Below are positions 11,190 to 54,610 of a stretch of DNA of 64,000 nt, piece after piece. The translations under genes were made by a program, and so were the position numbers. How positions within the stretch are numbered: position 1 is the stretch's first letter; every line of letters starts with the position of its first letter. The notes beneath the pieces were generated by a model. It was not told the origin of the DNA. It saw only the letters and a list, made by a program, of their open reading frames with translations, and searched no databases. Source of the stretch: Terriglobia bacterium (GTDB lineage: Bacteria > Acidobacteriota > Terriglobia > Bryobacterales > Bryobacteraceae); the NCBI GenBank assembly GCA_020073305.1, contig JAIQFK010000026.1, forward strand, positions 1 through 64,000. The letters run 5' to 3'.

Positions 11190-12479
11190 TTACGGCAATC
11201 CCGGCTTGTCCCTCCACATACCCAGCAGCTTGTACAAATTCACCAGGTGATGCTGCATGATGGTTTCGCCCGCGCCCACCTCGATGTGCGTGGTCACATC
11301 GGCGCCGTAGCCGCCGTACGCCGCCGCACGGATATCCGGGATGTACCCCGGCCACACGCCGCCAGCGCTGTAGGTGTATCCATAGAAGAGAGGATAGGGA
11401 ACGTCGGCCTGTTGCTTCCAGAATGTCTGGAACTTGTGCATGGCCTCGCCGGGCACGGTGGCGATGGCAATCTCGCGGTTGATGAGTACGGTCGTGATCC
11501 CGACCTCGATCGACTGCTCCTTGTCCCAGCGATCGGAAAATTTCAGAACTTCGCTCGTCGACTGAATCTGGTAGCGCGCGGGCGACGTGGCCTTGATCTC
11601 GTTGACGCTCCGCAGCACCTGCGCTCCCAGAAGCTCGCCCATGGTTTGCATGGTGGTGAAATCGGCATCTTCCTTGCCGGTGCGGCCTTCGAACAGCGGA
11701 TTGATGTCGCCCGCGCCGCCTTGCACAAACATGCACTGCGTTCCCGGCATGGCTGCTTCGACTTTGGCCACCATGACGCCGGGATAATCGGCGGACCACT
11801 TGCAGCTCGTCGGACCCAGCACAACCGCATGGCACGCGTAGTGCACGACCAGCGCTTTCGTCGCGCCGTTCATATCTTCGATGCGCAGCAGCGTGAACTC
11901 GGGATCGAGGGGCCCGTAGGGAACCCGCTCGAGATTGTCGAACAACGCTCGCGCTCGCCCGTCATCCCGCAGCACCAGCCGGTTGTAGCCCAGTTGCAGC
12001 GAACCGTGGCCAATGCCCAGCCGCGCCGGGAACATGGACGAGGTGGCCTGTTGGACGGCGCCGAAAACTTTTTTCTCCAGCTCGGCCTGATACGCCGAGG
12101 GCTCGAACGAGCCCGGTGTGATGCCTGGGGCTTTATCGCGAGACGGCAGAAAGGACGGTCCCGAGTGCGTGTGCGAGGCCGCGAGCAACAGCACGGGGAT
12201 GCCGAGTTTGCCGGCCACGTCCCGCTCGAGGTTCTCCGAAACGATGCTTCCCAGATCGAGCGTCACGATCGCCAGGCGCGAGTCGCCCGACGCCAGCACG
12301 AGCGCCCGCGCGAACAAAGGATCGTGCGTGCCGTTCGCAGGCCCGCACTTCCGATTGGCGTAACCGTACATCGGGCCGAAAGACGCGGGGGTGATGTCGA
12401 CCTTTGCCAGGCCGGCCTCGAGGTCCGCGGCGCCGAGCGGCAGGCCAAACACGAAACACGCGAAAAGCCAGTTCTTCAT
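11190..12479 (-). CDS. Neutral/alkaline ceramidase-like secreted hydrolase
   Basis: A 429-residue protein. Residues 1-18 are a signal peptide (MKNWLFACFVFGLPLGAA). The body has the neutral ceramidase N-terminal-domain pattern: AGLAKVDITPASFGPMYGY, HDPLFARALVL, LLLAASHTHSGPSF (Zn-binding HTHSGP), YACHAVVLGP and FVQGGAGDINPLF. Zinc-dependent amide hydrolysis of a lipid or other amide is expected. The family's usual C-terminal Ig-like domain is short or missing, common in the shorter bacterial relatives whose substrates are unknown. The ATG at 12479 directly precedes the signal peptide; longer in-frame readings run into the palindrome at 12489. Confidence 0.85.
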   Translation of the reverse strand: MKNWLFACFVFGLPLGAADLEAGLAKVDITPASFGPMYGYANRKCGPANGTHDPLFARALVLASGDSRLAIVTLDLGSIVSENLERDVAGKLGIPVLLLAASHTHSGPSFLPSRDKAPGITPGSFEPSAYQAELEKKVFGAVQQATSSMFPARLGIGHGSLQLGYNRLVLRDDGRARALFDNLERVPYGPLDPEFTLLRIEDMNGATKALVVHYACHAVVLGPTSCKWSADYPGVMVAKVEAAMPGTQCMFVQGGAGDINPLFEGRTGKEDADFTTMQTMGELLGAQVLRSVNEIKATSPARYQIQSTSEVLKFSDRWDKEQSIEVGITTVLINREIAIATVPGEAMHKFQTFWKQQADVPYPLFYGYTYSAGGVWPGYIPDIRAAAYGGYGADVTTHIEVGAGETIMQHHLVNLYKLLGMWRDKPGLP

Positions 12480-12488
12480 GTCGTTTAC

Positions 12489-12597
12489 TGTAGCGCAGGC
12501 CCACGCCTGATTTTGGCGGGGACCTGCGGCTTCTTTCCATTCGTAAGCGAAAAGCCGCAGCTCTCCCCGCAAACCCCGCGGGTAGGCCTGCGCTACA
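12489..12597. repeat. Nested palindrome of about 109 bases
   Basis: The outer arms TGTAGCGCAGGCC (12489-12501) and GGCCTGCGCTACA (12585-12597) are exact reverse complements. Inside them GGCGGGGA pairs with TCTCCCCGC, and CTGCGGCTT pairs with AAGCCGCAG, around a central loop near 12540. The whole unit could fold as one long interrupted hairpin. It lies upstream of two divergent genes (12479 leftward, 12695 rightward). It resembles a REP-like or MITE-like unit and could influence both promoters. No second copy was seen in the window. Confidence 0.75.
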
Positions 12598-12694
12598 TGC
12601 TACACGAGCGCCGATTCATTCAACGTTCTCTTATGTAACCGTAAGCCGCAACTTCGCGGCATCCGTGCGATGCGACAATGTTTCTGAAAGCCCT

Positions 12695-13486
12695 ATGCCG
12701 CTCCCTATCGTGCAAGTCGACGCCTTCACCTCCAAACCCTTTGCCGGCAATCCGGCGGCCGTGTGCGTCCTGCCGTCGGCGCGCGATGCGGTTTGGATGC
12801 AGAATGTGGCGCTCGAGATGAACCTCTCGGAAACCGCCTTCCTCGTGCGCCAGGCGGATGGATTCAATTTGCGCTGGTTTACGCCGGGTGTCGAGGTCGA
12901 TCTGTGCGGCCATGCCACCCTGGCCAGCGCACACGTGCTTTGGGAGGACGGCCATCTGCAGCCCGGCGAACAAGCGCGCTTTCACACGCGCAGCGGATTG
13001 CTCACCGCCGATCAGCGCGGCGACTGGATTGAAATGGATTTCCCGGTCAAAGCCGAGCAGGCGGCCGAGCCGCCGCCCAGGCTGGTGGAAGCGCTGGGCG
13101 TTGCGCCCAAGTACGTCGGCCGGAACAAGTTTGACTACATTGTCGAACTGGAGTCCGAAGCTGTGCTCAGAAACCTGAAACCAAACTTCACTTGGCTCTC
13201 GGAGATTCCGGTTCGCGGCGTGATTGTAACCGCGCGCTCTGCCAACGGCGGTTTCGATTTTATTTCCCGCTTCTTCGCTCCGGGCTCGGGGATCAACGAG
13301 GATCCCGTCACCGGCTCGGCGCACTGCTGTCTCGCGCCGTTCTGGGCCTCACGGCTCGGCAAGACCGAATTCACGGCGTACCAGGCCTCCCCGCGCGGCG
13401 GCGTATTGCGCGTCCGGCTCAATGGCGACCGCGTGCTTCTCGGCGGGCAGGCGGTGACGGTCTTGCGCGGTGAGCTAACGGACTGA
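12695..13486 (+). CDS. PhzF-family isomerase/epimerase-like protein
   Basis: A 263-residue protein of the PhzF family (diaminopimelate-epimerase fold). Conserved points are PIVQVDAFTSKPFAGNPAAV at the start, catalytic Glu46 in MNLSETAFL, FTPGVEVDLCGHATLASAHVL (about 67-87) and DPVTGSAHCCLAPFW. The family includes the phenazine enzyme PhzF, but most members lie outside phenazine clusters, and no other phenazine gene is seen here. An isomerase role on an unknown small acid is therefore the furthest safe statement. The ATG at 12695 gives the canonical N-terminus; a GTG at 12665 would add ten non-conserved residues. Repeat copy B follows directly after the stop. Confidence 0.88.
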   Translation: MPLPIVQVDAFTSKPFAGNPAAVCVLPSARDAVWMQNVALEMNLSETAFLVRQADGFNLRWFTPGVEVDLCGHATLASAHVLWEDGHLQPGEQARFHTRSGLLTADQRGDWIEMDFPVKAEQAAEPPPRLVEALGVAPKYVGRNKFDYIVELESEAVLRNLKPNFTWLSEIPVRGVIVTARSANGGFDFISRFFAPGSGINEDPVTGSAHCCLAPFWASRLGKTEFTAYQASPRGGVLRVRLNGDRVLLGGQAVTVLRGELTD

Positions 13487-38462: not shown

Positions 38463-39773
38463 TTATTCCAACGCGTACAAGTATCCGTCGGTGCTGCCAA
38501 TGTAGACCGCTCCATTCGCGATCAGCGGCGACGAAAAGAAGGAGCCGACGGTGGACTGTAAATCGAGGCCACTGGCGGCGGCTTCACGCCAGCCGCTGGT
38601 GAAAATCATGGGGCCGTTGAATTTCCGGTCCGCGGTCAGCACCCAGTTGCGGTTTTGCCGCGAAGCCTCCGTCTGGTACTCCCAAAGCAACTCGCCGGTG
38701 TTCAGATCGCGGGCTTCCAGGCTTCCATTGAGAACGCCAAGATACACGACCTCGCCCGCCACGGCCGGCGAGGAGAACACGTAGGCCTTCGTCGATTGCT
38801 TGAGGAGGCTCTTTCCGGTTGCCGCATCGGCGATGTGGAACAAACTCGAATCTGAAGTAGCGAAGACGACCTTGCCTTTTACGATGGCGGGCGAAGTGAT
38901 CACCCAGCTCCCGTTGTTGTAGAACTTCCATTTCTCCTTGCCGGTGGCCGCGTCGATTGCATACACGTTGGCATCGCGGCAGCCCGTGTAAACCACGCCG
39001 TCCACCACGGCCGGAGACGATTGAAACCCGATCTGGTTGTGGACGAGCGGATCATCGCCGCTCTTGAATCGCCACTTTTCTTTGCCGGAGGAAGCATCGA
39101 CCGCGTAGAGATACGTGTCCCAGCTGCCGAAATACAACGTGCCGGAATCAAAGGCGGGGGAAGCGTGCACAACGTCGCCCGTTCCGAACTTCCAGCGCAG
39201 TTCGCCGGAGGCCGCATCCAGCGCGTATAGGTTCCCGTCTCCCGAGCCGAAGTAGACAGCGCCTTGCGCCACTACCGGGCTCGACAAGTACAGGTCCCAC
39301 GGATCGGCGATGGTCTGGTTTTTCGGCAGCAGCCCGTGGATACCCTTGGCCTCGAAGCGCCGCTCTCCGCCCGTCGCGAATTTCCACTTCAGTTTTCCGG
39401 TTTGCGCATCCACCGCATAGAACTTGCCGTCGTAACTGGCGAAATACACGATCCCGGCAGCAACAGCGGGCGTGGACGGAACGGGTCCGTGGGTCTGGAA
39501 CTTCCAGTTCTGGCGGCCGGTGGCAGCGTCCACCGCGTACACGTTGTTATCATCGCTTCCGAAGTACACAATGCCTTCGTACCAGACGGGGGAGGACACG
39601 ATACGGTCTCCGGTCGCAAATTTCCATTTCACGCCATGCAACTTCCGCGGACCGGCGCCGGCGTATACGCCCGTGTGGGCCGGATCTCCACGGAACATGG
39701 ACTGTCCGTGGCACAGTGCCGCGAGTAACCCTCCGATCAACACCATGGCCGGGATGCGCATCGGTTCTCTCAT
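38463..39773 (-). CDS. Secreted PQQ-type beta-propeller protein (BamB-like)
   Basis: A 436-residue exported protein (signal peptide about 1-23). At least eight blades carry the PQQ-like repeat with an AxxG-W core, e.g. VDAATGRQNWKFQT, VDAQTGKLKWKFAT, LDAASGELRWKFGTG, VDASSGKEKWRFKSG, IDAATGKEKWKFYN and LNTGELLWEYQT. The blades are unusually regular. Similar proteins are quinoprotein-like or scaffold proteins; no cofactor ligands are obvious, so a structural or BamB-like role cannot be told apart from an enzymatic one. It overlaps the upstream gene by four bases (ATGA), implying co-expression. Confidence 0.88.
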   Translation of the reverse strand: MREPMRIPAMVLIGGLLAALCHGQSMFRGDPAHTGVYAGAGPRKLHGVKWKFATGDRIVSSPVWYEGIVYFGSDDNNVYAVDAATGRQNWKFQTHGPVPSTPAVAAGIVYFASYDGKFYAVDAQTGKLKWKFATGGERRFEAKGIHGLLPKNQTIADPWDLYLSSPVVAQGAVYFGSGDGNLYALDAASGELRWKFGTGDVVHASPAFDSGTLYFGSWDTYLYAVDASSGKEKWRFKSGDDPLVHNQIGFQSSPAVVDGVVYTGCRDANVYAIDAATGKEKWKFYNNGSWVITSPAIVKGKVVFATSDSSLFHIADAATGKSLLKQSTKAYVFSSPAVAGEVVYLGVLNGSLEARDLNTGELLWEYQTEASRQNRNWVLTADRKFNGPMIFTSGWREAAASGLDLQSTVGSFFSSPLIANGAVYIGSTDGYLYALE

Positions 39774-40640: not shown

Positions 40641-43600
40641 CTATTTTCCCGACGCGTGATAATTTGGGAACGGAGGCCGTTTATGCGGCCGCATTTCGTT
40701 CTTGTTCACCAAGTCCATGACGACCTGGACCGCTTTTTCCAGCTGCGCATCGTGGCCCTGGCGCCAAAGCTTGGGATCCAACTCCACTTCGTAGTCCGGT
40801 TGAACGCCATGATTCTCCACGTCCCACTTGCCGTCAGGCGTATAGAACGCCAGGTTCGGTGTTCCGGCAAATCCATCATCAATCAGGTCAACCGGGTTGG
40901 TGTAATGGCCCACCAATCCGCCCCAGGTTCTCTTCCCCACCAACGGGCCGATGCCTGTTTTGCGGAAGAGCCACGGCATGGCATCACCGCCCGAGCCGGC
41001 CATTTCATTGGTGATCATCACCTTGGGCCCAAAAATGGCTTCGATGGGCGTGGTGATGTCCTCACCCTCGCGCATGTCCCAGTAACTGAGGAGCGGACGT
41101 CGCAAGTAGTCGATGATGTAATCCGCGATGTCGCCTCCGCCGTTAAATCGCTCGTCGATGATGACCGCTTCCTTGCCGACCTGCGCAAAGAAATAGCGAT
41201 TGAAATTGGTGTAACCGCCGGAGTAAGTGTCGGGTAAGTAGACGTATGCCACGCGGCCACCCGTCATCTGGTCGACCTTCCGCCGATTGTCTTCGATCCA
41301 CGCCAGGTTCCGCAGGCCCGTCTCGTCGTCCACCGGGACCACGGTGACTTCGCGGGAGCCGCTGCCGTCCGGGTTGGGCCCGACCCGCAACACAACCGAT
41401 TTTCCGGCAGTCTCTTCGAAGAAGCTGTAAATGTTGTTGGGACCTCGCACGTCGCGGCCGCGAACAGCCAGCAGATATTCGCCGGCGGAAACGTCCACGC
41501 CAGGCTGAGTGAGCGGCGCCTGCAGCTTGGGATTCCAATTCTCACCGTCGTACACGCGAGCAAACCGGTAGCGGCCGTTTTCAACTGTGTAGTCGGCGCC
41601 CAGCAGCCCGCCCTTCACTTTCTTAGTTTCCGGAGTATCTCCGCCACCCACGAACATGTGCCCAACGGTCATCTCGCCCAGCATTTCTTCAAACAGGTAG
41701 TTCAAATCGTCGCGGCTGGAGATATTTTCGAGGTAGGACTCGTACTTCTTCTGGATGGCCTTGGCATCTACTCCATGGAGGCCAGGATCGTAAAAGAAAT
41801 CGCGCTCGTCCCGCCAGATCTGGTGATACATGTGCTTCCACTCCGTGCTGGGATCGACATAAACCTGCATGGTATCCAGCTTGAGCGGGCCGCCTTCACC
41901 AGGTTTTGGCGGCGCGCCGCTGGGCTTATCCGCCGGCGCGATGACCCATTGGTCCTTTTGCCTGTACAGCATTTTTTCGCCATTGAACGCCAGCTCGAAT
42001 GAATTGACGCCTTCCAGAATCTTCTCCGTCTTGCGCGTCTTCAGCTCGAACTTATGCAGGGTCGCCGCCGAACCGCCGTCGTCTCCATCGAGCGAATCCA
42101 CCGCCGGGCCTTCCACCAGGAACAGTACGCCGGGCTTTCCGGGCGCCAGATCCACATAGTTACGCGCCGGGATCGGCAGAGCGACGATCCGCTGGCCGAT
42201 GTTCGGGAAATCGATCTCGACGGCCGGCGGTTTCGCAGCTTTGTCCTTGTCTTTATCTTTGTCTTTGTCCTTATCTTTGTCTTTGTCCGTGGGCTTCTCC
42301 TCGTCACTTTCCGGCGCCATCGGCGAGGACACGCCTTTCTTTAGCACGACGGCGTAAACGCTGCGCGTTACGGGATGAGCAAGGCTCGACATATCCAGCC
42401 AGCCCGTGCTCAGGGCAGCATCGGTGCTCGCCATCAGGTAGAGATACTTGCCCTCTTTATCAAACCTGGCAAACGCCGCGTCGCTCATCCCATCCGTTAC
42501 CTGGCGAGGTTTCGCCTCATCGATTTGATAAGCAAAAACGGCGTGCAGATGATTCCGAAGCTGCCGGGTGTATGTGAGCCATTTACTGTCGGGGGACCAT
42601 GCCTGGTTGAACGACTGGCCGGGCCCGGCGTAAGTATCGGTGTCCACCCGCACCGGCGGCTTTTTGCCCTCCAGACTCACGTACCAAAGGTTCAAACGTT
42701 TGTCGGTGTAGGCGATCTTCAGGCTGTCGGGCGACCACGTAGGCGAGTAAAAGAAGGACGGCGGAGCCCCCAGATCGATTTTTCGCACCTCGCCCATTCC
42801 GCTCTGATCGCGCACGTGCAGAGCATACTCGCCGGATTCGTCGGAAAAGTAGGCGATCGACTTGCCATCGGGCGACCAGGCCGGGTCCCGCTCGGCAACC
42901 GCCGGCGTATTGGTCAGATTGCGGATGTCGCCCTTCTCCGCCGGGACGGTAAGAATTTCTCCGCGCGCGCCGAAAACCGCACGCGCACCCGTAGGGGAGA
43001 TTCCTGCGAAACGGATGCGCCTCGGCTCGATTTTTTGAAAATGCGGACGGACTTCGAGCAGGTCGCCCGTCAGATGGATGCTGACCTTGCGGTCTTCGCC
43101 GGAGTTCAGATCATACAGATGGATGTCGCCGAACTGCTCGAAGACGATCGCTCCCGGGCCCGCGGAAGCGGATTTGAAATCGAGTCCGGTATTGCGAACT
43201 ACCTGTTTCACCTGCTTGGCGCGAGTTTCGTAGGCGAACAGAGATACCGGGCCGTTGCGGTCGGAGAGGAAGTAGACGGTACCGCCGACCCACATTGGAT
43301 TAAAGTCGTTCGAATTGTCTCGGGGGATCTCCGCCTCTACGCTCGAATCCGACAGGTTGACAATCCAGATCGGCTTGGTCTGGCCGCCACGGTAGCGTTT
43401 CCACGCGCGCTGCCATTGCAGCCGGGGCACATAAGCCATATGTGTGCCATCCGGTGAATAGGAACCCTCTTCGGCTCGCGGCAAGGGGATTTCGGAAGGA
43501 AAACCACCGGCCAGTGACAACGCGAAAAGCCGGTTGAACCCAAACGAATAACTGTTGCGCGAGGAGCGAAAAACGACCTGCTTGCCGTCCGGCGTCCAGC

Positions 43601-43934
43601 CGACAACTTCGTCGGCGCTTGGGTGATAGGTCAGGCGCCGGGGCACGCCACCGGCAGCCGAGACAACGTAAACGTCGGTGTTGCCATCATACTGACCCGT
43701 GAACGCGATTTGGCTTCCATCCGGAGAAAACACAGGGTCGGTTTCCACGCCCGGAGCTGCGGTGAGGCGCGTCGCGTTGCCCCCTTCGCGCGCAACAATC
43801 CAGAGGTCGCCTGCATAGCTGAACACGATATGAGTCCGGCTGACGGTCGGCTTCCGAAAGAGCATCGGTTTCTCCGATTCGCCGAGGCAGAGAGCCGCTG
43901 AAATGAGAAATAAAATCGCGACGTATTTGCGCAT
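40641..43934 (-). CDS. Tricorn-like protease with S41 C-terminal domain
   Basis: A 1097-residue exported protein (signal peptide about 1-18). The N-terminal half consists of two TolB/WD40-type propellers with repeated motifs (SPDGSQIAF, TPDGKQVVF, SPDGKSIAY). An Asp/Lys run (TDKDKDKD...; about 550-566) separates them from the protease half. A tricorn-type PDZ region follows, then the S41 catalytic domain with Ser981 in NEMAGSGGDAMPW and a following GLVGHYTNP segment. Tricorn-like proteases trim peptides to short products; exported forms are widespread in Acidobacteriota. Its length matches the family. Confidence 0.9.
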   Translation of the reverse strand: MRKYVAILFLISAALCLGESEKPMLFRKPTVSRTHIVFSYAGDLWIVAREGGNATRLTAAPGVETDPVFSPDGSQIAFTGQYDGNTDVYVVSAAGGVPRRLTYHPSADEVVGWTPDGKQVVFRSSRNSYSFGFNRLFALSLAGGFPSEIPLPRAEEGSYSPDGTHMAYVPRLQWQRAWKRYRGGQTKPIWIVNLSDSSVEAEIPRDNSNDFNPMWVGGTVYFLSDRNGPVSLFAYETRAKQVKQVVRNTGLDFKSASAGPGAIVFEQFGDIHLYDLNSGEDRKVSIHLTGDLLEVRPHFQKIEPRRIRFAGISPTGARAVFGARGEILTVPAEKGDIRNLTNTPAVAERDPAWSPDGKSIAYFSDESGEYALHVRDQSGMGEVRKIDLGAPPSFFYSPTWSPDSLKIAYTDKRLNLWYVSLEGKKPPVRVDTDTYAGPGQSFNQAWSPDSKWLTYTRQLRNHLHAVFAYQIDEAKPRQVTDGMSDAAFARFDKEGKYLYLMASTDAALSTGWLDMSSLAHPVTRSVYAVVLKKGVSSPMAPESDEEKPTDKDKDKDKDKDKDKDKAAKPPAVEIDFPNIGQRIVALPIPARNYVDLAPGKPGVLFLVEGPAVDSLDGDDGGSAATLHKFELKTRKTEKILEGVNSFELAFNGEKMLYRQKDQWVIAPADKPSGAPPKPGEGGPLKLDTMQVYVDPSTEWKHMYHQIWRDERDFFYDPGLHGVDAKAIQKKYESYLENISSRDDLNYLFEEMLGEMTVGHMFVGGGDTPETKKVKGGLLGADYTVENGRYRFARVYDGENWNPKLQAPLTQPGVDVSAGEYLLAVRGRDVRGPNNIYSFFEETAGKSVVLRVGPNPDGSGSREVTVVPVDDETGLRNLAWIEDNRRKVDQMTGGRVAYVYLPDTYSGGYTNFNRYFFAQVGKEAVIIDERFNGGGDIADYIIDYLRRPLLSYWDMREGEDITTPIEAIFGPKVMITNEMAGSGGDAMPWLFRKTGIGPLVGKRTWGGLVGHYTNPVDLIDDGFAGTPNLAFYTPDGKWDVENHGVQPDYEVELDPKLWRQGHDAQLEKAVQVVMDLVNKNEMRPHKRPPFPNYHASGK
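42239..42292. repeat. Hexanucleotide-type tract encoding an Asp-Lys run
   Basis: Inside the tricorn-like gene a short tandem of TTTGTC/TTTATC-type units (minus strand GACAAA/GATAAA) encodes about eight Asp-Lys pairs. It likely forms a flexible hydrophilic linker. Such tracts vary in length by replication slippage, so strain-to-strain variation is expected. Confidence 0.7.
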
Positions 43935-45400: not shown

Positions 45401-46765
45401 TCAGCGCTCCGCGATGGCGACGACGTGTCCGCGCGTCCGGTAATAGATTACGTCTTCAGAAACGGCCGGCGAGGCCATGGCAATATCCCCCAGTAGGTTC
45501 TTGGACAGCAGCGCAAATTGCGGGCCCGCCTTGATCACGTAGACCTCGCCTTCTTCGCTGGCGAAATACAACTTGGAATCGACGGCGATGGGCGAAGAAC
45601 TGAAGCCCGTGGTCCCGGCGCCGAGGCGTTCGGTGTAATGGAGCTTGCCCGTGCGGGCGTCAAACACTTTCAAAACGCCGCGATCTGAGCAACTGTACAG
45701 AAGATCGCCCAGGATCACGGGCGTTTGCATATAGGCGCCATTGTTCGGCTCAAACCACGCAAGACCACGGCTGGAGGTAGAGTCGCCTTGCGGCGTGATG
45801 TCGCCGGATGCGTCGGGCTTGACAGCGTAAAGAGGCTTCGGCCCGCCATGGGCATTCGTCACGTAAATGAGTCCGTGGGCGAAAACCGGGGTAGGCACGG
45901 GGATGTCGCCGCCCGATTTCAGCCGCCATAATTCCTTGCTGGTCTCCAGATCGTATCCGGCAATGTAGGGCCAGCCGTTCGAGACAATCTGCGTTCGCCC
46001 GCCGGCTCGAACCACCGCAGGTGTTGCCCAACTGTGGTTGGAGACGCCATCACGACCCACGCGCCACAACTCCTTCCCGTCTTTAGCGGACAGCACCACC
46101 AGAAACGAGCCCTTCTTCTGATCGCACTGCAGAACCAGCTTGTCCTCGAACAAAACCGGCGAGCTTGCGGTGCCCCACTGCAAGTCGTAACCTTGCGGGC
46201 CGGGATCAAACACACCGAGATCCTTCGTCCAAAGCAGCTTGCCCTCGAGATCGTACGCGTACACGCCTTCGGAGCCGAAAAACACGATGAGCCGTTTGCC
46301 ATCGGTTGTGGGCGTCGCATTGGCGTGCGTCGCCTTGGTGTGCCGCTTGGTTTTCGGAGCGCCCTTGTGGGCCACGCGCTGCCAGAGGATCTTGCCCGTG
46401 TTCTTGTCCAGGCAGTAGACCACCCAGCTCTGCTCGGTGTTGTCGTCCGCCGGATCCCCGTCGCCGTAAAGTCCCACTTTGAGCGGCGCGGTCCCGGCCG
46501 AGCTGATCGCGGTCGTCACAAACAGGCGGTTTCCCCAGATCGCCGGGCTCGAATGAGCCAGGCCCGGAATGGCTGTCTTCCATCGAATGTTCCGCAGCGC
46601 GCCTTGCGACGGATCAGCATTCCACGACGTCGCGGCCTTGCCCTCCGCCACGCCCCCGGCTTCCGGCCCGCGGAATGACGGCCAGTTGACCGTAGCCGCG
46701 CCGAGCGCCGCGGCGAGGGTGCCGGCAAGCAGAGTTCTCGGGATCACGTGGATAGAATACACCAT
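45401..46765 (-). CDS. Secreted PQQ-type beta-propeller protein
   Basis: A 454-residue exported protein (signal peptide about 1-24). NWPSFRGPEAGGVAEGKAATSWNAD is the opening typical of the FRGP-type propeller family. Blades follow with LDKNTGKILWQRVAHKG, YDLEGKLLWTKDLG, LSAKDGKELWRVGRDG and YDLETSKELWRLKSGGD. The HANATPTTDGKRLIVFFGSEGVYAYDL segment is conserved in that family. These are often called quinoprotein- or dehydrogenase-like but lack clear PQQ ligands. The ATG at 46765 precedes the signal peptide. Divergent from the radical SAM gene, with 106 bases between the starts. Confidence 0.87.
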   Translation of the reverse strand: MVYSIHVIPRTLLAGTLAAALGAATVNWPSFRGPEAGGVAEGKAATSWNADPSQGALRNIRWKTAIPGLAHSSPAIWGNRLFVTTAISSAGTAPLKVGLYGDGDPADDNTEQSWVVYCLDKNTGKILWQRVAHKGAPKTKRHTKATHANATPTTDGKRLIVFFGSEGVYAYDLEGKLLWTKDLGVFDPGPQGYDLQWGTASSPVLFEDKLVLQCDQKKGSFLVVLSAKDGKELWRVGRDGVSNHSWATPAVVRAGGRTQIVSNGWPYIAGYDLETSKELWRLKSGGDIPVPTPVFAHGLIYVTNAHGGPKPLYAVKPDASGDITPQGDSTSSRGLAWFEPNNGAYMQTPVILGDLLYSCSDRGVLKVFDARTGKLHYTERLGAGTTGFSSSPIAVDSKLYFASEEGEVYVIKAGPQFALLSKNLLGDIAMASPAVSEDVIYYRTRGHVVAIAER

Positions 46766-46871: not shown

Positions 46872-48203
46872 ATGACAACGGAATCGCCGAAGGATGTCCG
46901 TCCGGAAGAAGCCACCGCAGCCGGTAATTATTTTGTCTCCAACTATCCTCCGTATTCTTTCTGGACCCGCGAGCGCGCACACGAAGCCCTTGCCGCGTTA
47001 GATCGCGCCCCTGCGCCCGATACTCCGCTAGGGATCTACCTGCACATTCCCTTTTGCCGCAAGCGGTGCCACTTCTGCTATTTCAAGGTCTACACAGACA
47101 AGAACGCGGACGAGATCGAAGGCTACCTCGACGCCGCCATCCAGGAGCTGACGCTTTACTCGCAGAAGCCGTTCATCGGCGGCCGGAAGCCGAAATTCAT
47201 TTACTTCGGTGGTGGAACGCCCTCTTACATTTCCTCGCGGCAGATCACTCACATCGTCGACGGAATGAAGCGCCTCCTGAGTTGGGACGAGGCCGAAGAA
47301 GTCACCTTCGAGTGCGAGCCTGGGACCCTGACCGAGCCCAAGCTGAGCGCGATCAAAGACCTCGGCGTCACGCGCCTCAGCCTGGGCATTGAGAACTTCG
47401 ATGATCAGATTCTGCAGGTCAACGGACGGGCGCACGGCTCCCGGGAGATTGACCGCACGTATCAATATGCGCGCTCCATCGGATTCCCGCAGATCAATAT
47501 CGACCTGATCGCCGGAATGATGGGGGAAACCAACGGGAACTGGCGCGACTGCGTGCAGAAAACCATTGCGCTCGGTCCGGACAGCATCACCATCTACCAG
47601 ATGGAAATCCCCTACAACACCACGATCTTCAAGGAAATGAAAGTCCTGGGGCAGACCGTCGCGCCGGTGGCCGATTGGCGAACCAAGCGCGCGTGGGTCG
47701 ATTACGCGTTCGCGGAATTTGAAAAGGCCGGTTACACGGTAGCGAGCGCATATGCGGCCGTTAAGGATCCTTCACGCACGCGCTTCCTCTACCGCGACCT
47801 GCTATGGACCGGCGCCGACATGATCGGCTTGGGCGTGTCTTCGTTCTCGCACGTCGGCGGAACGCATTTTCAAAACGAACACGAGTTCGAATCCTACATA
47901 GCTAAGCTGCGCCAGGGCGCGCTCCCGATCTTCCGCGCCTTGACCACCACCGAGGAAGAGCGCGTGATTCGCGAACTCATTTTGCAGATGAAACTGGGAC
48001 GCGTTCACCGGCCCTACTTCGAGCGCAAGTTCGGCGTGGATGTGGAAAAGCGGTTCGCCGCCCCTTTGGGCAGATTGCGGGATCAAGGCTTCCTGACGGC
48101 GGACCAGAACAGCCTGCGGCTCAATCGGGACGGTTTGTTACAAGTGGATAAGCTGCTTCACGAGTTTTTCCTGCCGGAACACCGGAGCGCGCGGTATGCC
48201 TGA
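46872..48203 (+). CDS. HemW/HemN-like radical SAM protein
   Basis: A 443-residue radical SAM enzyme. YLHIPFCRKRCHFCYF gives the cluster ligands Cys62, Cys66 and Cys69 (C-x3-C-x2-C). FIYFGGGTPSYIS is the SAM-binding GGGTP motif, and RLSLGIENFDDQIL, NIDLIAGMMGET and a C-terminal HemN-type domain (TEEERVIRELILQMKLG...) follow. The family covers HemW (heme chaperone), HemN and several natural-product enzymes that methylate or cyclopropanate. The length and motifs resemble HemW, but the gene starts a four-gene biosynthetic-looking operon, so a modification role is plausible. GAGGAG upstream of the ATG is a strong ribosome-binding site. Confidence 0.88.
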   Translation: MTTESPKDVRPEEATAAGNYFVSNYPPYSFWTRERAHEALAALDRAPAPDTPLGIYLHIPFCRKRCHFCYFKVYTDKNADEIEGYLDAAIQELTLYSQKPFIGGRKPKFIYFGGGTPSYISSRQITHIVDGMKRLLSWDEAEEVTFECEPGTLTEPKLSAIKDLGVTRLSLGIENFDDQILQVNGRAHGSREIDRTYQYARSIGFPQINIDLIAGMMGETNGNWRDCVQKTIALGPDSITIYQMEIPYNTTIFKEMKVLGQTVAPVADWRTKRAWVDYAFAEFEKAGYTVASAYAAVKDPSRTRFLYRDLLWTGADMIGLGVSSFSHVGGTHFQNEHEFESYIAKLRQGALPIFRALTTTEEERVIRELILQMKLGRVHRPYFERKFGVDVEKRFAAPLGRLRDQGFLTADQNSLRLNRDGLLQVDKLLHEFFLPEHRSARYA

Positions 48204-48248
48204 GGGTACCGCTAACCAAAACCTCCCGGCTTTCGTCTCCGATATAAG

Positions 48249-48821
48249 GTGAATCCGGAATCGCACTTGATCTATCCATTGAATGAGTTTTACGAACAGT
48301 TGGGGTTGCCCCAGCCGGCGGCTGCCCAGGTGGAAGGCCGGGACGTGCCCGAGCCATACCGGAGCCTGCTGGTACACGACCGCGACATGACGCCGACGCT
48401 TGAAGACGCCCATAATCGAACGATCCAGCTTCGCGTTCTGCAATACACGGTGGCCGGAAACATATTGTCGCGGCAGGTGGTGCTGGTCCCGGAAAACGAG
48501 ACGCGGCCGGTGGCCTTCGGCGCCATCAAGATCAACCTGGAACACTTTCACGGCGAGGCGAAACGGCTGGTGCTCGAGAGGAGACAGCCGCTAGGAACCA
48601 TCCTGCACACCCAGGGAATGGAGCACTCAGGCCACGCAGACGCGTACATCCGGATAACGCCTGACGCTCTGATTCACGACGCGCTCAGCCTGCGGGAACC
48701 CACCACGTTGTACGGCCGGCGGAAGGCGATGGTGGATGCCGGCGGGCGAATCCTGGCTCAGGTGGTCGAGATTCTGGCGCCCCGGAACGGAACTTCACGC
48801 ACGGAGAGAACTGGTGCCTAA
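48249..48821 (+). CDS. Chorismate pyruvate-lyase-like protein (DUF98/UbiC-like)
   Basis: A 190-residue cytoplasmic protein of the chorismate lyase-like fold. Landmarks are YRSLLVHDRDMTPTLEDAHN (about 37-56), LRVLQYTVAGNILSRQVVLVPENETRPVAFGAIKINLEHF and LGTILHTQGMEHSGHADAYIRI, ending REPTTLYGRRKAMVDAGGRILAQVVEIL. The family converts chorismate to 4-hydroxybenzoate and pyruvate; members outside ubiquinone synthesis may use related substrates. Conservation of catalytic residues could not be checked. The start is a GTG at 48249 with a weak ribosome-binding site; the 3' end overlaps the flavin-enzyme gene by eight bases. Confidence 0.75.
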   Translation: MNPESHLIYPLNEFYEQLGLPQPAAAQVEGRDVPEPYRSLLVHDRDMTPTLEDAHNRTIQLRVLQYTVAGNILSRQVVLVPENETRPVAFGAIKINLEHFHGEAKRLVLERRQPLGTILHTQGMEHSGHADAYIRITPDALIHDALSLREPTTLYGRRKAMVDAGGRILAQVVEILAPRNGTSRTERTGA

Positions 48822-50088
48822 AGCGAATCGATACGATGCCATCGTCATCGGGGGAGGTCCCGCCGGCTCCACGGCGGCGGCGGTGCTGGCCCAAAAAGGC
48901 CGCCGTGTCGTGGTGCTGGAGAAGGAGAAGTTCCCGCGATATCACATCGGCGAATCCTTGCTCCCCTACGGCTACTACACGCTCCAGCGCATCGGTGTGC
49001 TGGACAAGATGAAAGGGTCCGAGTTCACCCGGAAATACAGCGTTCAGTTCGTGGGCACCAGCGGCCGGGCCTCTCTGCCGTTTTACTTCTTCCAGCAACT
49101 GAAGCACGAGGCATCGCAGACGTGGCAGGTGTTGCGCGGCGAGTTCGATCAGTTGCTGCTCGACAATGCCCGCGAGAAAGGCGCCGAAGTGATCGAGGAG
49201 ACCACGGTGCGCGGTGTCATCCGCGACAATGGCGCGGTCGCCGGCGTGAACGGCGTCACCCCGAGCGGCGAAACGCTGGAGTTTCATGCGCCGATTACCA
49301 TCGACTGCAGCGGGCGCGATGCTTTCTCCGTCACGCGCAACGGATGGAAGGTGCGCGATCCGAAGTTGAATAAGATCGCGGTCTGGACGTATTACAAGGG
49401 CGCGCTTCGCGACCCGGGAGTCGACGAAGGCGCCACCACCGTGGCCTACGTTCCGGAGAAGGGCTGGTTCTGGTACATTCCGCTACACCGGGATATTGTG
49501 AGCGTGGGCGTGGTGGCTGAGAAGGACTACTTGTACAAGGATTCGCACGACCTTCCGGCCATCTTTCATGGCGAGGTGGAAAAGAACAAGTGGATCAAGC
49601 ATCACCTGGCAGCGGGGCAGCAATTCGGGCCCTACCGGGTGACCGGCGAGTACTCCTATCGTTCCCGCCATTGCGCGGCGGACGGGTTGATTCTGGCCGG
49701 CGACGCCTTTGCTTTCCTCGATCCCGTCTTTTCTTCCGGTGTCTTCATCGCTCTCCGCAGCGGAGAGATGGCCGCGGACGCCGCCGACGCCGCTCTGGCA
49801 TCGGGTGATTTTTCGGCCGCACAATTCAGCGGTTACGGAGCGGATCTGTGTGGAGGCATTGAGGCCATGCGACGCCTGGTCTACGCTTTTTATGACCACG
49901 CCTTCAGCTTCCGCGTTTTTCTCAAGCACCATCCCGATATGCATGGCGACATGACCGACTGCCTCATGGGGAACCTGTTTCGCGATTTCGATCCGCTGTT
50001 CTCGGCCGTGGCGGAATTTGCCAAAATTCCCGAACCTCTGTCGCACGGCAGGCCCCTGGCGGTGGACAAAGTCGAAGTCACGCCGTAA
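48814..50088 (+). CDS. Flavin-dependent halogenase-like FAD protein
   Basis: A 424-residue FAD protein. The Rossmann motif is VIGGGPAGSTAAAVLAQKG (about 11-29), then FPRYHIGESLLP (40-51), as in phenol- and pyrrole-type flavin halogenases. GWFWYIPLH contains W-x-W-x-I-P (218-223), which in halogenases keeps NADPH oxidation from becoming simple monooxygenation. Lys74 in EFTRKYSVQF lies where the halogenase catalytic lysine occurs, although the usual K-x-G is K-x-S. DAFAFLDPVFSSGVFIAL is the usual FAD-binding C-terminal motif. GTG start at 48814 with GGAG upstream. Halogenase, monooxygenase or reductase remain possible. Confidence 0.85.
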   Translation: MPKANRYDAIVIGGGPAGSTAAAVLAQKGRRVVVLEKEKFPRYHIGESLLPYGYYTLQRIGVLDKMKGSEFTRKYSVQFVGTSGRASLPFYFFQQLKHEASQTWQVLRGEFDQLLLDNAREKGAEVIEETTVRGVIRDNGAVAGVNGVTPSGETLEFHAPITIDCSGRDAFSVTRNGWKVRDPKLNKIAVWTYYKGALRDPGVDEGATTVAYVPEKGWFWYIPLHRDIVSVGVVAEKDYLYKDSHDLPAIFHGEVEKNKWIKHHLAAGQQFGPYRVTGEYSYRSRHCAADGLILAGDAFAFLDPVFSSGVFIALRSGEMAADAADAALASGDFSAAQFSGYGADLCGGIEAMRRLVYAFYDHAFSFRVFLKHHPDMHGDMTDCLMGNLFRDFDPLFSAVAEFAKIPEPLSHGRPLAVDKVEVTP

Positions 50089-50099
50089 TCTTTCAATTC

Positions 50100-51386
50100 A
50101 TGGCGCTTTCCGGCTTTCCCGACCGCAGCAGGATTGAAGCCGACCAGCTCGGCAAGCTCAGAGCCCTGCTTGGGATTTTGCTCGGGGCCAATGCCTTTTA
50201 TTCAACGAAGCTCAGCGCCGCCGGCGTTGGCGCGGACCTGGCGAGCCTGGAAGAGTATTTCGAGCGCTGGCCTTTCACTCAGAAACGTGAGCTGACTCAA
50301 GACCAGCGCGAACACCCGCCATATGGCACGAATCTGACTTATCCTCTGGAGCGTTACACCCGCTTCTGCCACACCAGCGCCACCTCGGGCCGGCCCATGC
50401 ACTGGCTCGATACGCCGCAGAGCTGGGCCTGGATGGTCGACAACTGGACCGAGGTATTCCGCGCGTCCGGCGTGACCTCACAGGACCGCATCTTTTTCGC
50501 GTTTTCCTTTGGGCCGTTCCTGGGGTTTTGGACGGCGTTCGAAGCGGCGCTTCGCATGGGCTGCCTTTCGATACCCGGAGGCGGCATGCGCAGTTCTGCC
50601 CGATTGCAGGCCATCGTGGATACCGGCGCGACCGTGCTCTGCTGCACTCCTACCTACTCCATCCGCCTGGCGGAGGTTGCGGCGGAACAAAACTTCGACC
50701 TCAAAGACGCCCGGATCAAGAAGATCTTCGTGGCGGGCGAGACCGGCGGCAGCATCCCGGGCACCGTCGCCCACATCGAGAAACTGTGGCACGGAGCGCG
50801 CATCGTAGATCAGCACGGGATGACCGAAACCGGCCCGGTCAGCTACAGTTGCTCCGTGCGGCCGGGAGTGCTGCACGTGATGGAGTCGGCCTACATCGCC
50901 GAAATTATTTCCACCGACACCGGCAGGCCCGTTCCGCCGGGAGGCACGGGCGAGCTGGTGCTGACCAACCTGGGGCGCACCGGTTCACCCATTCTGCGGT
51001 ATCGCACCGGCGACCTCGTCCAGCGCGCGGCGGAATGCCCGTGCGCTTGTGGCCGCCACGATCTGGCGCTCGAGGGTGGAATCCTGGGACGCACCGACGA
51101 CATGGTGGTGGTCCGCGGCGTCAACGTCTATCCCAGCGCGGTTGAGGACGTGCTGCGCAGCTTCGGCGTGGCCGAGTACCGCGTCGAGATCCGCACCGAG
51201 CGCGCGCTTCCCGAATTGAGCATTCAGGTAGAACCATCTCCCGGACAGCAGGACGGCGCGGGCCTCGCTCACCAGCTCGAAGCCGCGCTGAACAATGCTT
51301 TTTCCCTCCGGATTCCCGTGTCTTGCGTGCACCTCGGCGAATTGCCGCGTTTTGAAATGAAAGCTCGCCGTTGGGTTCGGGTGTGA
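50100..51386 (+). CDS. Phenylacetate--CoA ligase-like AMP-forming enzyme
   Basis: A 428-residue adenylating enzyme of the PaaK type. FCHTSATSGRPMHW (about 84-97) is the AMP-binding P-loop; VAGETGGSIPGT and HGMTETGPVSYSC hold the adenine site; VLTNLGRTGSPILRYRTGDLVQ and LGRTDDMVVVRGVNVYPSAVEDVL form the hinge, and MKARRWVRV the C-terminal lysine segment. It would activate an aromatic or other small carboxylic acid as its CoA thioester. Substrate specificity is not evident. It ends the four-gene run, 11 bases after the flavin-enzyme gene. Confidence 0.9.
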   Translation: MALSGFPDRSRIEADQLGKLRALLGILLGANAFYSTKLSAAGVGADLASLEEYFERWPFTQKRELTQDQREHPPYGTNLTYPLERYTRFCHTSATSGRPMHWLDTPQSWAWMVDNWTEVFRASGVTSQDRIFFAFSFGPFLGFWTAFEAALRMGCLSIPGGGMRSSARLQAIVDTGATVLCCTPTYSIRLAEVAAEQNFDLKDARIKKIFVAGETGGSIPGTVAHIEKLWHGARIVDQHGMTETGPVSYSCSVRPGVLHVMESAYIAEIISTDTGRPVPPGGTGELVLTNLGRTGSPILRYRTGDLVQRAAECPCACGRHDLALEGGILGRTDDMVVVRGVNVYPSAVEDVLRSFGVAEYRVEIRTERALPELSIQVEPSPGQQDGAGLAHQLEAALNNAFSLRIPVSCVHLGELPRFEMKARRWVRV

Positions 51387-51526: not shown

Positions 51527-51541
51527 AGGGATGTGACTGGT

Positions 51542-52105: not shown

Positions 52106-54610
52106 ATGCGTTTCCCCCGGCAAACGGCGGCTCTGGTTCTCGGCTGGGCGCTCACGGTGTCTTCCGCGGGCGCGTATTACCATTACATCCACTACACCAG
52201 CACGACGGCACCGTACCTTCCGGTTCCTGAGAAGTTCGACCTCTCGGTTCTGCCGAACAAGACCGTCACAATTCTCGTCTCGGATGCCGGCCCGAAAAAG
52301 TACTCGGCGAATGACAATCTGCCGTCGGTTTTGACCCAGGTACGCCAGGCGGCCGAAGTCTGGAATCGCGTGGCGACCTCGGATCTTCGGGTAACCTTCG
52401 GTGGACTGTATGCGGATGGAACGGCTGGCGTGACGCCGGGCGGTGAACTGGTATTCGACGACGAAGTTCCACCCGGTTTGTTGGCCATCACCACGCACAC
52501 GGCGGCCAATTCGCCCGTGGAGGGGCCGAACGGATCGTTCTTCCCGATCACGCGGTCGGTCATGCATTTCAGGAGCGACTTAACGCAGGCCCCGGGACCC
52601 AGTTACACCGAAGGCTTCTTCCTGACCGTCGTCCATGAGATGGGCCACGCACTGGGATTGCAGCACACCTTCACATCCAGCGTGATGTCGACGGCCGTGA
52701 CGCGCGCGACCGCCGAACTGCAACCGCTCGACGCCGACGATATTGCCGCGGTTTCGCTGCTCTATCCGCACAATTTCGGCGGCAATACCGGCACGATCAT
52801 AGGCACGGTCACCGCGGGGGGTGCGGGCGTGCACATGGCTTCCGTGGTGGCGCTACGGCCCGGTGGCGCGGCGGTCAGCTCACTAACCAATCCCGACGGC
52901 ACTTACCGCATCGACGGCATTCCACCCGGAAACTACGTGGTTTATGTGCAGCCGTTACCACCCACCGCGAACATCACGCCGCCGCAGGATGTGAATGGGA
53001 ACCCGGTAGCGCCAAGCAGCGCGTTCAACGGCGTGTTTTATCCCAATGTCAGCGATCCGAGTAAGGCCACGGTCGTCACCATCCAGGCGGGCGCCTCGGC
53101 CGACGGAATCGACTTTGCCGTCAACCACGCAAACACTGTGCCGGTCTACGATGTTTCCACCTACAGCTTCTACGGCCAGGCGGCGGCACATCCCGCGTAC
53201 GTAAACTTCGTGCCCGGACCGGCCACCATAGCGGCAGCGGGAGTTGGCCTCGGTTCGAACGGCAAGGTAGCCTCCGGCTTAAGCGCGACCATCCTGGGCA
53301 CGGCGTTCCTGGCTCCGGGTGGCCTGCGCGCCTACGGCACTACCCCGACGTACCTCGCACTCGACCTGATGTTCGGGCTCGCCACTCAAACCGGACCGCA
53401 ACACATGGTCTTTTCGCAGGGCAATAACATCTACGTGCTTCCCGCCGCCTTGAAGGTGACCAACAGCGATCCACCCTCCATCACGTCTGTGGCGGAGGGC
53501 GCGAATGAACATGTAGAGGTCACTGGAGCGAATTTCGTCCCCAACAGCCAGGTTTACTTTGACGGGCTGCCGGCGACGACAACCATCGTGGACGCCTCGC
53601 ACGCGATCGTGATCCCGCCGCCGGGAGTGAGCGGCCAAACCGCGGTGGTGACGGTGTACAACGGCGATGGACAGAACTCGATGTTCCTGGCTCCGACGTC
53701 CCTTCCCACATACAGCTACCCCGGTTCCAGCGCCACGGCGCCAACTCGGAGCGTGACGCTTTCCCCGAGCGTATTGCCCGCGGGAGCCCGCGCGCTGGTC
53801 GACATCACTGGCGTCAACACAAACTTCGCGGACGGATTCATGAGTGTGGGTTTCGGATCCAGTGATGCTCTGGTACGTGGGGTATGGGTGCTGAGCCCGA
53901 CGCATGCGCTGGTAAACGTGCAGGTGGCCGACAGCGCGCAATCTGGTTCATCGTACGCAACCGTGATTTCCGGCTTTCAGACCATCTCGCAGCCGAACGC
54001 TTTCCAGATCGGCGCCGCGGCGCCTAACGCCCCGGTGGTCGAGCCGACCCTGATCAACGCGGTATGGCTGCCGAGCGGCGTGTATCCGGGCGCGATCACC
54101 AGTCTGTTTGGGCTCAACCTGGGCGGCGCCCAAACTACCGTCACCATCAACAATGTGCCGGCGACGATTCTCTACGCCTCGGCGTCACAGATCAATTTGG
54201 TGGTTCCGGCATCGCTCAAGGCCGGACCCGCGATCCTCCGCCTGAATAATGGGTCCACGAACGCGTATCCCGTCGTGGTAGTGATCGGACCGGCGCCACC
54301 CTCCATCACCGCCATCGAGAACGCATCAAACGTCACTATCAGCGCATCCAATCCGGCGCAGGCAGGCGATGTCCTGAACGTGCAGGTAACCGGGCTGGCG
54401 CCCTCCGGTACGGCGGTAGCTCCCGGGCGCGTAAATCTTACCGCCGGCGGCGTGGACATGCCGGCAGGCAGCGTGACGGATGTGAACGACACCACGTCTG
54501 TCATTCAATTCAAGCTCGATCCGAACGTGGCTCCGGGCGCTCAGATCCCTCTGACTGTTTCTATCGACGGCAAGACCAGCTTGCCGGTCTACATCCCGAT
54601 CGTTCCTTAA
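52106..54610 (+). CDS. Secreted matrixin-type metalloprotease with carboxypeptidase-regulatory and IPT/TIG domains
   Basis: An 834-residue extracellular protein (signal peptide about 1-23). The zinc motif HEMGHALGLQH gives ligands His177, His181 and His187 with catalytic Glu178, and Met194 (SSVMST) is the Met-turn. From about 228 a carboxypeptidase-regulatory-like domain (TIIGTVTAGGAGVHMASVVALRPGG) follows. The C-terminal half has several IPT/TIG-like beta domains (ITSVAEGANEHVEVTGANFVPNSQVYFDGLPATTTIVD; VTLSPSVLPAGARALVDITGVNTNF; VYPGAITSLFGLNLGGAQTTVTINNVPATIL). These may bind surfaces or glycans. Substrates unknown. Confidence 0.88.
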   Translation: MRFPRQTAALVLGWALTVSSAGAYYHYIHYTSTTAPYLPVPEKFDLSVLPNKTVTILVSDAGPKKYSANDNLPSVLTQVRQAAEVWNRVATSDLRVTFGGLYADGTAGVTPGGELVFDDEVPPGLLAITTHTAANSPVEGPNGSFFPITRSVMHFRSDLTQAPGPSYTEGFFLTVVHEMGHALGLQHTFTSSVMSTAVTRATAELQPLDADDIAAVSLLYPHNFGGNTGTIIGTVTAGGAGVHMASVVALRPGGAAVSSLTNPDGTYRIDGIPPGNYVVYVQPLPPTANITPPQDVNGNPVAPSSAFNGVFYPNVSDPSKATVVTIQAGASADGIDFAVNHANTVPVYDVSTYSFYGQAAAHPAYVNFVPGPATIAAAGVGLGSNGKVASGLSATILGTAFLAPGGLRAYGTTPTYLALDLMFGLATQTGPQHMVFSQGNNIYVLPAALKVTNSDPPSITSVAEGANEHVEVTGANFVPNSQVYFDGLPATTTIVDASHAIVIPPPGVSGQTAVVTVYNGDGQNSMFLAPTSLPTYSYPGSSATAPTRSVTLSPSVLPAGARALVDITGVNTNFADGFMSVGFGSSDALVRGVWVLSPTHALVNVQVADSAQSGSSYATVISGFQTISQPNAFQIGAAAPNAPVVEPTLINAVWLPSGVYPGAITSLFGLNLGGAQTTVTINNVPATILYASASQINLVVPASLKAGPAILRLNNGSTNAYPVVVVIGPAPPSITAIENASNVTISASNPAQAGDVLNVQVTGLAPSGTAVAPGRVNLTAGGVDMPAGSVTDVNDTTSVIQFKLDPNVAPGAQIPLTVSIDGKTSLPVYIPIVP

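Follow-up and report, generated by a model that had tools for sequence, protein, structure and literature searches.

A conserved four-gene operon from a Terriglobia bacterium as candidate core of a pathway to modified 4-hydroxybenzoate

What could a HemN-family radical S-adenosylmethionine (SAM) protein, a chorismate-lyase-like protein, a halogenase-like flavoprotein and a PaaK-like ligase make together? This question is raised by four tightly spaced genes at positions 46872-51386 of a 64,000-nucleotide stretch (hereafter the window; assembly GCA_020073305.1, contig JAIQFK010000026.1) from the genome of a Terriglobia bacterium. All four lie on the forward strand. Gene 1 (46872..48203; 443 amino acids, ATG start) encodes the radical SAM protein, gene 2 (48249..48821; 190 amino acids, GTG start) the chorismate-lyase-like protein with a DUF98/UbiC fold, gene 3 (48814..50088; GTG start) the flavin-dependent-halogenase-like flavin adenine dinucleotide (FAD) protein and gene 4 (50100..51386; 428 amino acids, ATG start) the PaaK-like, AMP-forming aryl/acyl-coenzyme A (CoA) ligase. 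A first-pass annotation had suggested a route from chorismate to an aryl acid and its CoA thioester, with halogenation or oxidation and a radical step. We propose that the operon encodes the compact core of a conserved pathway dedicated to a modified 4-hydroxybenzoate, a reading to which we assign a probability of about 50%. It builds on observed domains, folds, motifs, conserved gene order and genome-level co-occurrence.

The grouping of the four genes is conserved. A scan of a genome collection for gene 2 returned 21 loci in Acidobacteriota, Verrucomicrobia and one Phycisphaeraceae genome, and neighbourhoods were checked in 85 fetched stretches that hold one gene of the set or, in two stretches of contig 25 of the window's own genome, an exporter and its flank; the phylum names are those that we take to stand behind the relatives' record titles. 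All four genes occur together in ten other genomes of Acidobacteriota and Planctomycetota (L033, L040, which shares its contig with L222, L057-L061, L216, L220 and L221). Gene order is conserved as well: seven of the ten keep the order radical SAM, lyase, flavoprotein, ligase, and in the remaining three (L057, L058, L061) the last two genes are swapped. Three further loci (L093, L094, L164) hold radical SAM, flavoprotein and ligase genes side by side, and the lyase gene occupies a separate locus of these genomes (L034, L038, L054). In Verrucomicrobia, ten of eleven loci with radical SAM and lyase genes have no third member alongside (L043-L045, L047-L053), and L042 adds the flavoprotein. The cultured Brevifollis gellanilyticus NBRC 108608 has the radical SAM and lyase genes as a pair, its flavoprotein and ligase genes being located elsewhere. 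The scattered members are still found at genome level: 16 genomes from lyase loci of all phyla, which cover 16 of the 21 loci (L035, L036, L037, L039 and L046 were left out), encode the flavoprotein in 16 cases, one match (G301) spanning profile positions 12-273 only, and the ligase in 15, often away from the lyase.

Co-occurrence was counted in 297 Acidobacteriota genomes at thresholds chosen for this analysis (radical SAM 1e-90, flavoprotein 1e-100, lyase 1e-6, ligase 1e-80), with at most 5, 6, 11 and 5 candidates scored per genome, respectively, absences being less sure than presences. The radical SAM protein is carried by 48 genomes, the flavoprotein by 48 (44 after dropping the weak matches in G092, G110, G153 and G278, E ~1e-102 to 1e-104), the lyase by 22 and the ligase by 39. 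The lyase is accompanied by the radical SAM protein in 21/22 and by the ligase in 20/22 genomes, and all four families meet in 18. Radical SAM protein (48) and flavoprotein (44) share 42 genomes (Fisher p 4.6e-42); Fisher values ignore kinship, and 11 of the 22 lyase genomes belong to one family, f47. A chance neighbourhood of unrelated housekeeping genes, that is HemW with a stray flavoprotein and ligase, could be suspected, single genes of these superfamilies being common, but it is refuted by a grouping conserved in two phyla, a co-occurrence seen in three and a separate HemW in the genome, and we give it next to no credence.

The new element here is that the window operon is a cut-down version of a gene set that numbers up to about 17 members and is fullest in Planctomycetota. 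The four-gene operon of the first-pass annotation is therefore confirmed as a set of four and was understated, as relatives embed the four genes in this larger set. In the Planctomycetota stretches L220, L221, L222 and L216 the four genes lie inside one long same-strand run whose content varies from run to run. The most complete, L222, begins with two pyrroloquinoline quinone (PQQ)-type propellers, a DUF3311-type small protein, an SSF symporter, a short AMP-ligase, an aldehyde dehydrogenase, an Fe-alcohol dehydrogenase and a third propeller. It continues with the radical SAM protein, lyase, flavoprotein, a glycosyltransferase, a 4HBT thioesterase, a small protein without Pfam family, the ligase, an ATP-binding cassette (ABC) ATPase and an FtsX permease; L219 holds a partial set. 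The short AMP-ligase and aldehyde dehydrogenase are presumably LuxE-like and LuxC-like, respectively, the scans themselves showing only AMP-binding and aldehyde dehydrogenase domains. Neighbouring genes were picked as the longest or best-matching open reading frames (ORFs), a procedure that hid real genes, and picks were re-examined for the four core genes only. The window's own genome encodes the exporter on another contig (G000:C25:216689-220989, equal to L214 13689-17989), as ABC ATPase and FtsX permease with a VOC protein between them. This permease scores 1118 bits at 54% identity (runner-up 33.6 bits), and the ATPase beside it has 67% identity to its best match. By eye, NADH-dehydrogenase-like genes are located some distance upstream of the exporter genes.

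Acidobacteriota variants add a TonB receptor, and the one tested (L155) passes the siderophore-receptor model TIGR01783 (245.1 bits, cut-off 223.5). Receptor genes of this kind in or beside several relatives' sets would fit a siderophore- or metallophore-like metal binder that is exported and then re-imported, as would a P-type ATPase gene overlapping the lyase gene in the Verrucomicrobia loci L043, L044 and L047. However, no nonribosomal peptide synthetase (NRPS), IucA-type or catechol amidation domain was found among the scanned proteins, and no TonB-type receptor was recognised in the seven Planctomycetota stretches or near the window operon. We consider such a product quite unlikely.

Entry into the proposed pathway would depend on gene 2, whose protein has no Pfam family at E 0.1 and no NCBIfam match. 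A profile built from 28 sequences, window protein included, finds one solved structure, 2nwi (DUF98, AF1396; E 6.6e-6). The same structure is the best match of the AlphaFold model (predicted local distance difference test score, pLDDT, 93.5), with Z 17.0 and 1.9 Å over 143 residues, in an alignment list that barely covers residues 1-34; E. coli UbiC (1g81) is matched at Z 11.9. Compared profile to profile, gene 2 and UbiC match with E 1.5e-5 and probability 79.5. R75, G91 and E174 are invariant in 28/28 alignment rows, and R75 aligns to UbiC Arg76, which we take, together with Glu155 and including the numbering, to be a catalytic or active-site residue. The chorismate-lyase-like label, initially given by eye, is thus borne out by the 2nwi profile match and the fold, and the protein is probably an active chorismate-lyase-like enzyme, as judged from sequence and model. 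Membership in the UbiC family by model score was rejected, PF04345 and PF01947 both staying below their cut-offs; a search of the whole genome with PF04345 at E 0.001 came back empty. A diverged gene 2 branch (L064, L065, L066, L068) with 24-26% identity to the window protein has a different conserved neighbourhood and is found in one acidobacterial family, in which the genes for radical SAM protein and flavoprotein map to other parts of the genome. In three Verrucomicrobia loci the last 4 bases of the lyase-like gene are shared with the P-type ATPase gene (L043 4339-6186, L044 9525-11372, L047 2495-4342, all +; domain scanned for L044 only). Among the fetched Verrucomicrobia loci, only L049, L051 and L053 have an MMPL exporter beside the lyase gene (domain scanned for L049).

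The lyase-like protein could have another role if the set were catabolic, such that imported, for example lignin-derived, aromatic alcohols or acids would be oxidised, CoA-activated and hydroxylated. SSF, TRAP and Na+/H+ carriers, Fe-alcohol dehydrogenase, aldehyde dehydrogenase, 4HBT and VOC proteins do adjoin the genes in relatives. Yet the UbiC-type Arg is retained, no dedicated ring-cleavage operon was noticed in the sets, and glycosyltransferase, exporter and HemN-like radical SAM protein would suit synthesis better, so that we regard catabolism as unlikely.

The ligase encoded by gene 4 carries the Pfam domains AMP-binding and AMP-binding_C_2, both above cut-off, and its closest solved relatives are PaaK (4r1l, 2.7e-74) and 2-hydroxyisobutyryl-CoA synthetase (6hdw, 3.6e-74). 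With 166.7 bits it falls far below the cut-off of the PaaK equivalog TIGR02155 (646.3), so that an acid other than phenylacetate is possible as its substrate. Close to the C terminus, Lys421, presumably the A10 lysine, is invariant in 9 rows. An aryl polyene, flexirubin or dialkylresorcinol pathway was rejected as a candidate: FlxY reaches 125.8/520 bits on gene 4, and Pfam scans gave no ketosynthase domain.

The flavoprotein encoded by gene 3 matches Trp_halogenase PF04820 with 108.3 bits (cut-off 21). The window protein contains GGGPAGS (GxGxxG), WFWYIP (WxWxIP) and FLDPVFSSG (Fx.Px.Sx.G), motifs that are described as halogenase marks in the available parts of PMC10696468, PMC10377541 and PMC12645471. 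WxWxIP and FxxPxxSxG are present in 34/34 listed cluster members (two of them paralogues in one genome), and K70, a catalytic-type Lys, is invariant in 10/10 rows and aligned to a Lys of Mpy16, PltA and ChlB4. The best PDB match of the profile is FasV (8zop, 2.9e-90), in the company of CndH, Mpy16, PltA, ChlB4, Bmp2 and CmlS, whereas the geranylgeranyl-reductase-type 3oz2 is far behind (87 bits against 306 bits for 8zop). In a Foldseek search with the model (pLDDT 88.2), ranks 1-11 are all halogenases (E 2.4e-39 to 1.8e-35); over the top 20 structural matches, identity is 24-32%. The flavoprotein therefore has the halogenase active-site residues, by motifs and by a Lys invariant in the 10-row alignment, and halogenases as best structural matches. 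Halogenation is likely on this sequence and model evidence, although not firm, because the hydroxylase QhpG has the same fold. The Brevifollis genome of L050 encodes two further halogenase-like flavoproteins near the pathway's own (L098 5357-6961, -, and 9879-11159, +).

Gene 1 matches the Pfam families Radical_SAM (PF04055, 71.1 bits) and HemN_C (PF06969, 26.4 bits), and domain scans with Pfam and NCBIfam agree with the HemW-like radical SAM, flavin-halogenase-like and PaaK-like labels previously given to genes 1, 3 and 4. Its CxxxCxxC motif is C62/C66/C69, with Phe at the position of HemN's fourth Cys, and profile searches find the structures of HemN (1olt) and NocN (9p2u). A housekeeping identity is ruled out: the protein scores 168.4 bits against HemW TIGR00539 (cut-off 205.4) and 197.9 bits against HemN TIGR00538 (cut-off 324.95), another protein of the same genome passes the HemW cut-off with 211.3 bits, and 17 members of the gene 1 family form one clade of their own (support 99/99). 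The comparison rows of this tree were E. coli HemN, E. coli HemW, the HemW of the window's genome, a HemN-like row and NocN, and with HemW, NocN and HemN-like rows on long branches it is readable only for the unity of the gene 1 family. The signature IPFCRKRCxFCY is found in 32/38 listed cluster rows; the six that deviate include a HemN-like row. CxxxCxxC and the Tyr that stacks on a second SAM are invariant in 18/18 rows and aligned with NocN, and both are present in HemN and HemW as well. The NocN residues that contact the second SAM, as given in the available part of PMC12871812, are retained with Ser225 replaced by Thr, and Glu takes the place of NocN Arg230, the residue stacking on the first SAM. 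These residues make some form of radical reaction with a second SAM plausible. In L059 the radical SAM gene is present twice in tandem, as identical copies (10168-11502 and 11792-13126, both -), which may be a genuine duplication or an artefact of assembly.

Substrates, reaction sequence, halogen, radical chemistry, export and product are all what we infer from these genes. The lyase-like protein would convert chorismate into 4-hydroxybenzoate and pyruvate, and the PaaK-like ligase would turn the acid into its CoA thioester. The flavoprotein, most simply read as a halogenase of the phenol type, would halogenate the phenol ring, most likely by chlorination and perhaps on the thioester; its carrier-using halogenase relatives act on a thioester. 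The HemN-family protein would carry out a single radical step, in the simplest case a class-C-like transfer of one carbon to an sp2 carbon, and since it travels most tightly with the flavoprotein, the two may act in sequence on the ring. The FtsX-type ABC exporter, encoded elsewhere in the genome, would move the product across the inner membrane. In relatives with larger sets the thioesterase may release the product, the trio of AMP-ligase, aldehyde dehydrogenase and Fe-alcohol dehydrogenase may reduce it and the glycosyltransferase may decorate it. Gene identities, order and motifs thus support the route suggested by the first-pass annotation, while its chemistry keeps the status of a proposal. 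That the genes are so widely distributed and persist even where dispersed points to a role of general, lasting use more than to a strain-specific antibiotic.

Several observations weigh against this reading. Of the 48 Acidobacteriota genomes with the radical SAM protein, 27 have no lyase homologue at 1e-6 and 18 no ligase at 1e-80, 9 ligase genomes are without radical SAM protein, and two of the seven Planctomycetota stretches (L217, L218) show the radical SAM gene alone, with no other set gene recognised. Where the lyase is absent, radical SAM protein and flavoprotein must draw their substrate from another source; there is thus a variant that runs without input from a chorismate lyase, and ligase-like proteins of similar score serve elsewhere too. 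Gene 2 stays under every Pfam cut-off, PF01947 matching two of the 28 members (best E 0.0023) and not the window protein, and its fold is common to UTRA regulator domains, PhnF (Z 13.2) ranking above UbiC (Z 11.9). Moreover, E174 is one column off UbiC Glu155 in the sequence alignment and in register only by structural end offset, in 3/4 UbiC chains. Most NocN second-SAM contact residues occur in HemW too and are therefore no demonstration of methylase activity for gene 1. Lastly, QhpG combines the halogenase fold with hydroxylase activity.

The latter point carries an alternative of its own. If the flavoprotein were a hydroxylase, the set might make an exported catechol- or quinone-type redox cofactor for the adjacent PQQ-like propellers, by analogy to the flavoprotein QhpG and the radical SAM protein QhpD, which build cysteine tryptophylquinone. 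QhpG, a hydroxylase of quinone cofactor building, is closest in fold to CmlS according to the available part of PMC7876137, an exporter is linked, and fuller sets contain up to three propellers. The NCBIfam scores of the flavoprotein (QhpG 128.2, LodB 89.5, GoxB 82.3 bits) can be cited in favour, but they lie far under the cut-offs of 240-400, and the closest structures are halogenases. WxWxIP, proposed in the available part of the review PMC10696468 to prevent hydroxylation, is conserved together with the Lys. The radical SAM protein has no SPASM domain at E 0.1 in the Pfam scan, no substrate peptide was noticed, and the window propeller is loosely related to those of relatives. Taken together, a cofactor function appears rather unlikely.

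Within the proposed halogenation pathway, propellers, carriers and dehydrogenases of the full set could be accommodated in another way. White-rot fungi run a chlorinated anisyl alcohol cycle, and by analogy the full set might form an aryl-alcohol redox shuttle, an idea that we put forward as a long shot. A halogenated hydroxyaryl acid would be made, reduced to the alcohol by the trio and released by the FtsX-type exporter; periplasmic or external propellers would oxidise the alcohol, and SSF symporter or TonB receptor would re-import it.

On the DNA, the ORF listing spaces genes 1 to 4 by a 45-base gap, an 8-base overlap and an 11-base gap. Gene 3 lies in an enclosing ORF (48736-50088) and its most likely start is GTG 48814, which follows GGAGAGA at a distance of four bases, hence the overlap with gene 2 is exactly 8 bases; with this start the rightward run and spacing first described are exact. 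A purine-rich site, GAGGAGAG, lies four bases 5' of the gene 1 ATG. A consensus scan for promoters and terminators returned 1 and 3 sites, not above shuffled sequence. The divergent neighbour of the operon (45401..46765, -, probable ATG at 46765) is a secreted-looking PQQ_2/BamB-like beta-propeller. Propellers adjoin the radical SAM gene in many relatives; the window propeller has 48% identity to its best match among the collected propellers and 23-38% to the other 12 listed, and owing to this loose kinship it was rejected as a certain operon partner. A second PQQ-type propeller (38463-39773, -), 7 kb upstream of the operon, has ~30-34% identity over most of its length to propellers next to relatives' radical SAM genes. 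Also present in the window are a large tricorn-like S41 peptidase with WD40-like repeats (40641-43934, -) and, just downstream of the operon, an M10 matrixin-type metalloprotease with TIG domain (52106-54610, +), which is adjoined by a small gene at 51533 without Pfam family.

Judged by its radical SAM member, the system is widespread, with 48/297 genomes in Acidobacteriota and 58/294 in the phylum of the Phycisphaeraceae record L040, and the four families co-occur in Verrucomicrobia genomes too. No description of this gene combination was found in titles and abstract starts of open-licence papers. Candidatus Solibacter is an acidobacterium. In the available part of a forest-soil metagenome study it is among the abundant genera known for halogenation enzymes, and soil halogen cycling is described as a process whose key enzymes and organisms are largely unknown (PMC4926216). 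If the flavoprotein halogenates, the gene set is a concrete, testable source for soil halogen cycling; if it does not, the set is still a conserved pathway for which no assigned product was found, and either way there are defined genes and enzymes for deletion and assay. The redox shuttle, if true, would provide soil and water phyla with a diffusible mediator and make the genes a large source of natural organohalogens.

The individual proteins resemble known systems without being identical to any of them. DUF98/Rv2949c-like chorismate pyruvate-lyases are closest to gene 2 in structure and profile, but gene 2 lies under every Pfam cut-off and lacks the mycobacterial phenolic glycolipid context to which Rv2949c belongs. 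Gene 1 shares family, CxxxCxxC and second-SAM Tyr with HemN and the class C methylase NocN, yet differs by the missing fourth Cys of HemN, a separate clade and the absence of a recognised thiopeptide or polyketide synthase (PKS) context. FasV, PltA, ChlB4, Mpy16, Bmp2, CndH and CmlS are like gene 3 in fold, WxWxIP, Fx.Px.Sx.G and Lys; in contrast to these halogenases, gene 3 has no recognised carrier protein, PKS or NRPS alongside, and the ligase would supply the thioester. The exporter recalls YbbAP-TesA, a type VII ABC system of E. coli, in which a YbbA/LolD-type ATPase and a large FtsX permease are tied to thioester chemistry (available part of PMC12646458), but its ATPase scores under the YbbA and LolD cut-offs, no TesA was seen, and an aryl-CoA ligase gene is linked. 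Closest in print among the literature found is the bmp pathway to a marine tetrabromo-biphenyldiol, where a chorismate lyase adjoins a flavin halogenase acting on 4-hydroxybenzoate and works with a cytochrome P450 (available part of PMC10579414). The scan of eight window proteins shows no P450, no search for one having been made in the remainder of the genome, and the window lyase has DUF98 rather than UbiC as best structural match. Unlike bmp, the window set combines the lyase and flavoprotein with a PaaK-like ligase as well as a radical SAM protein of HemN type, is linked to many further genes in relatives and belongs to other phyla.

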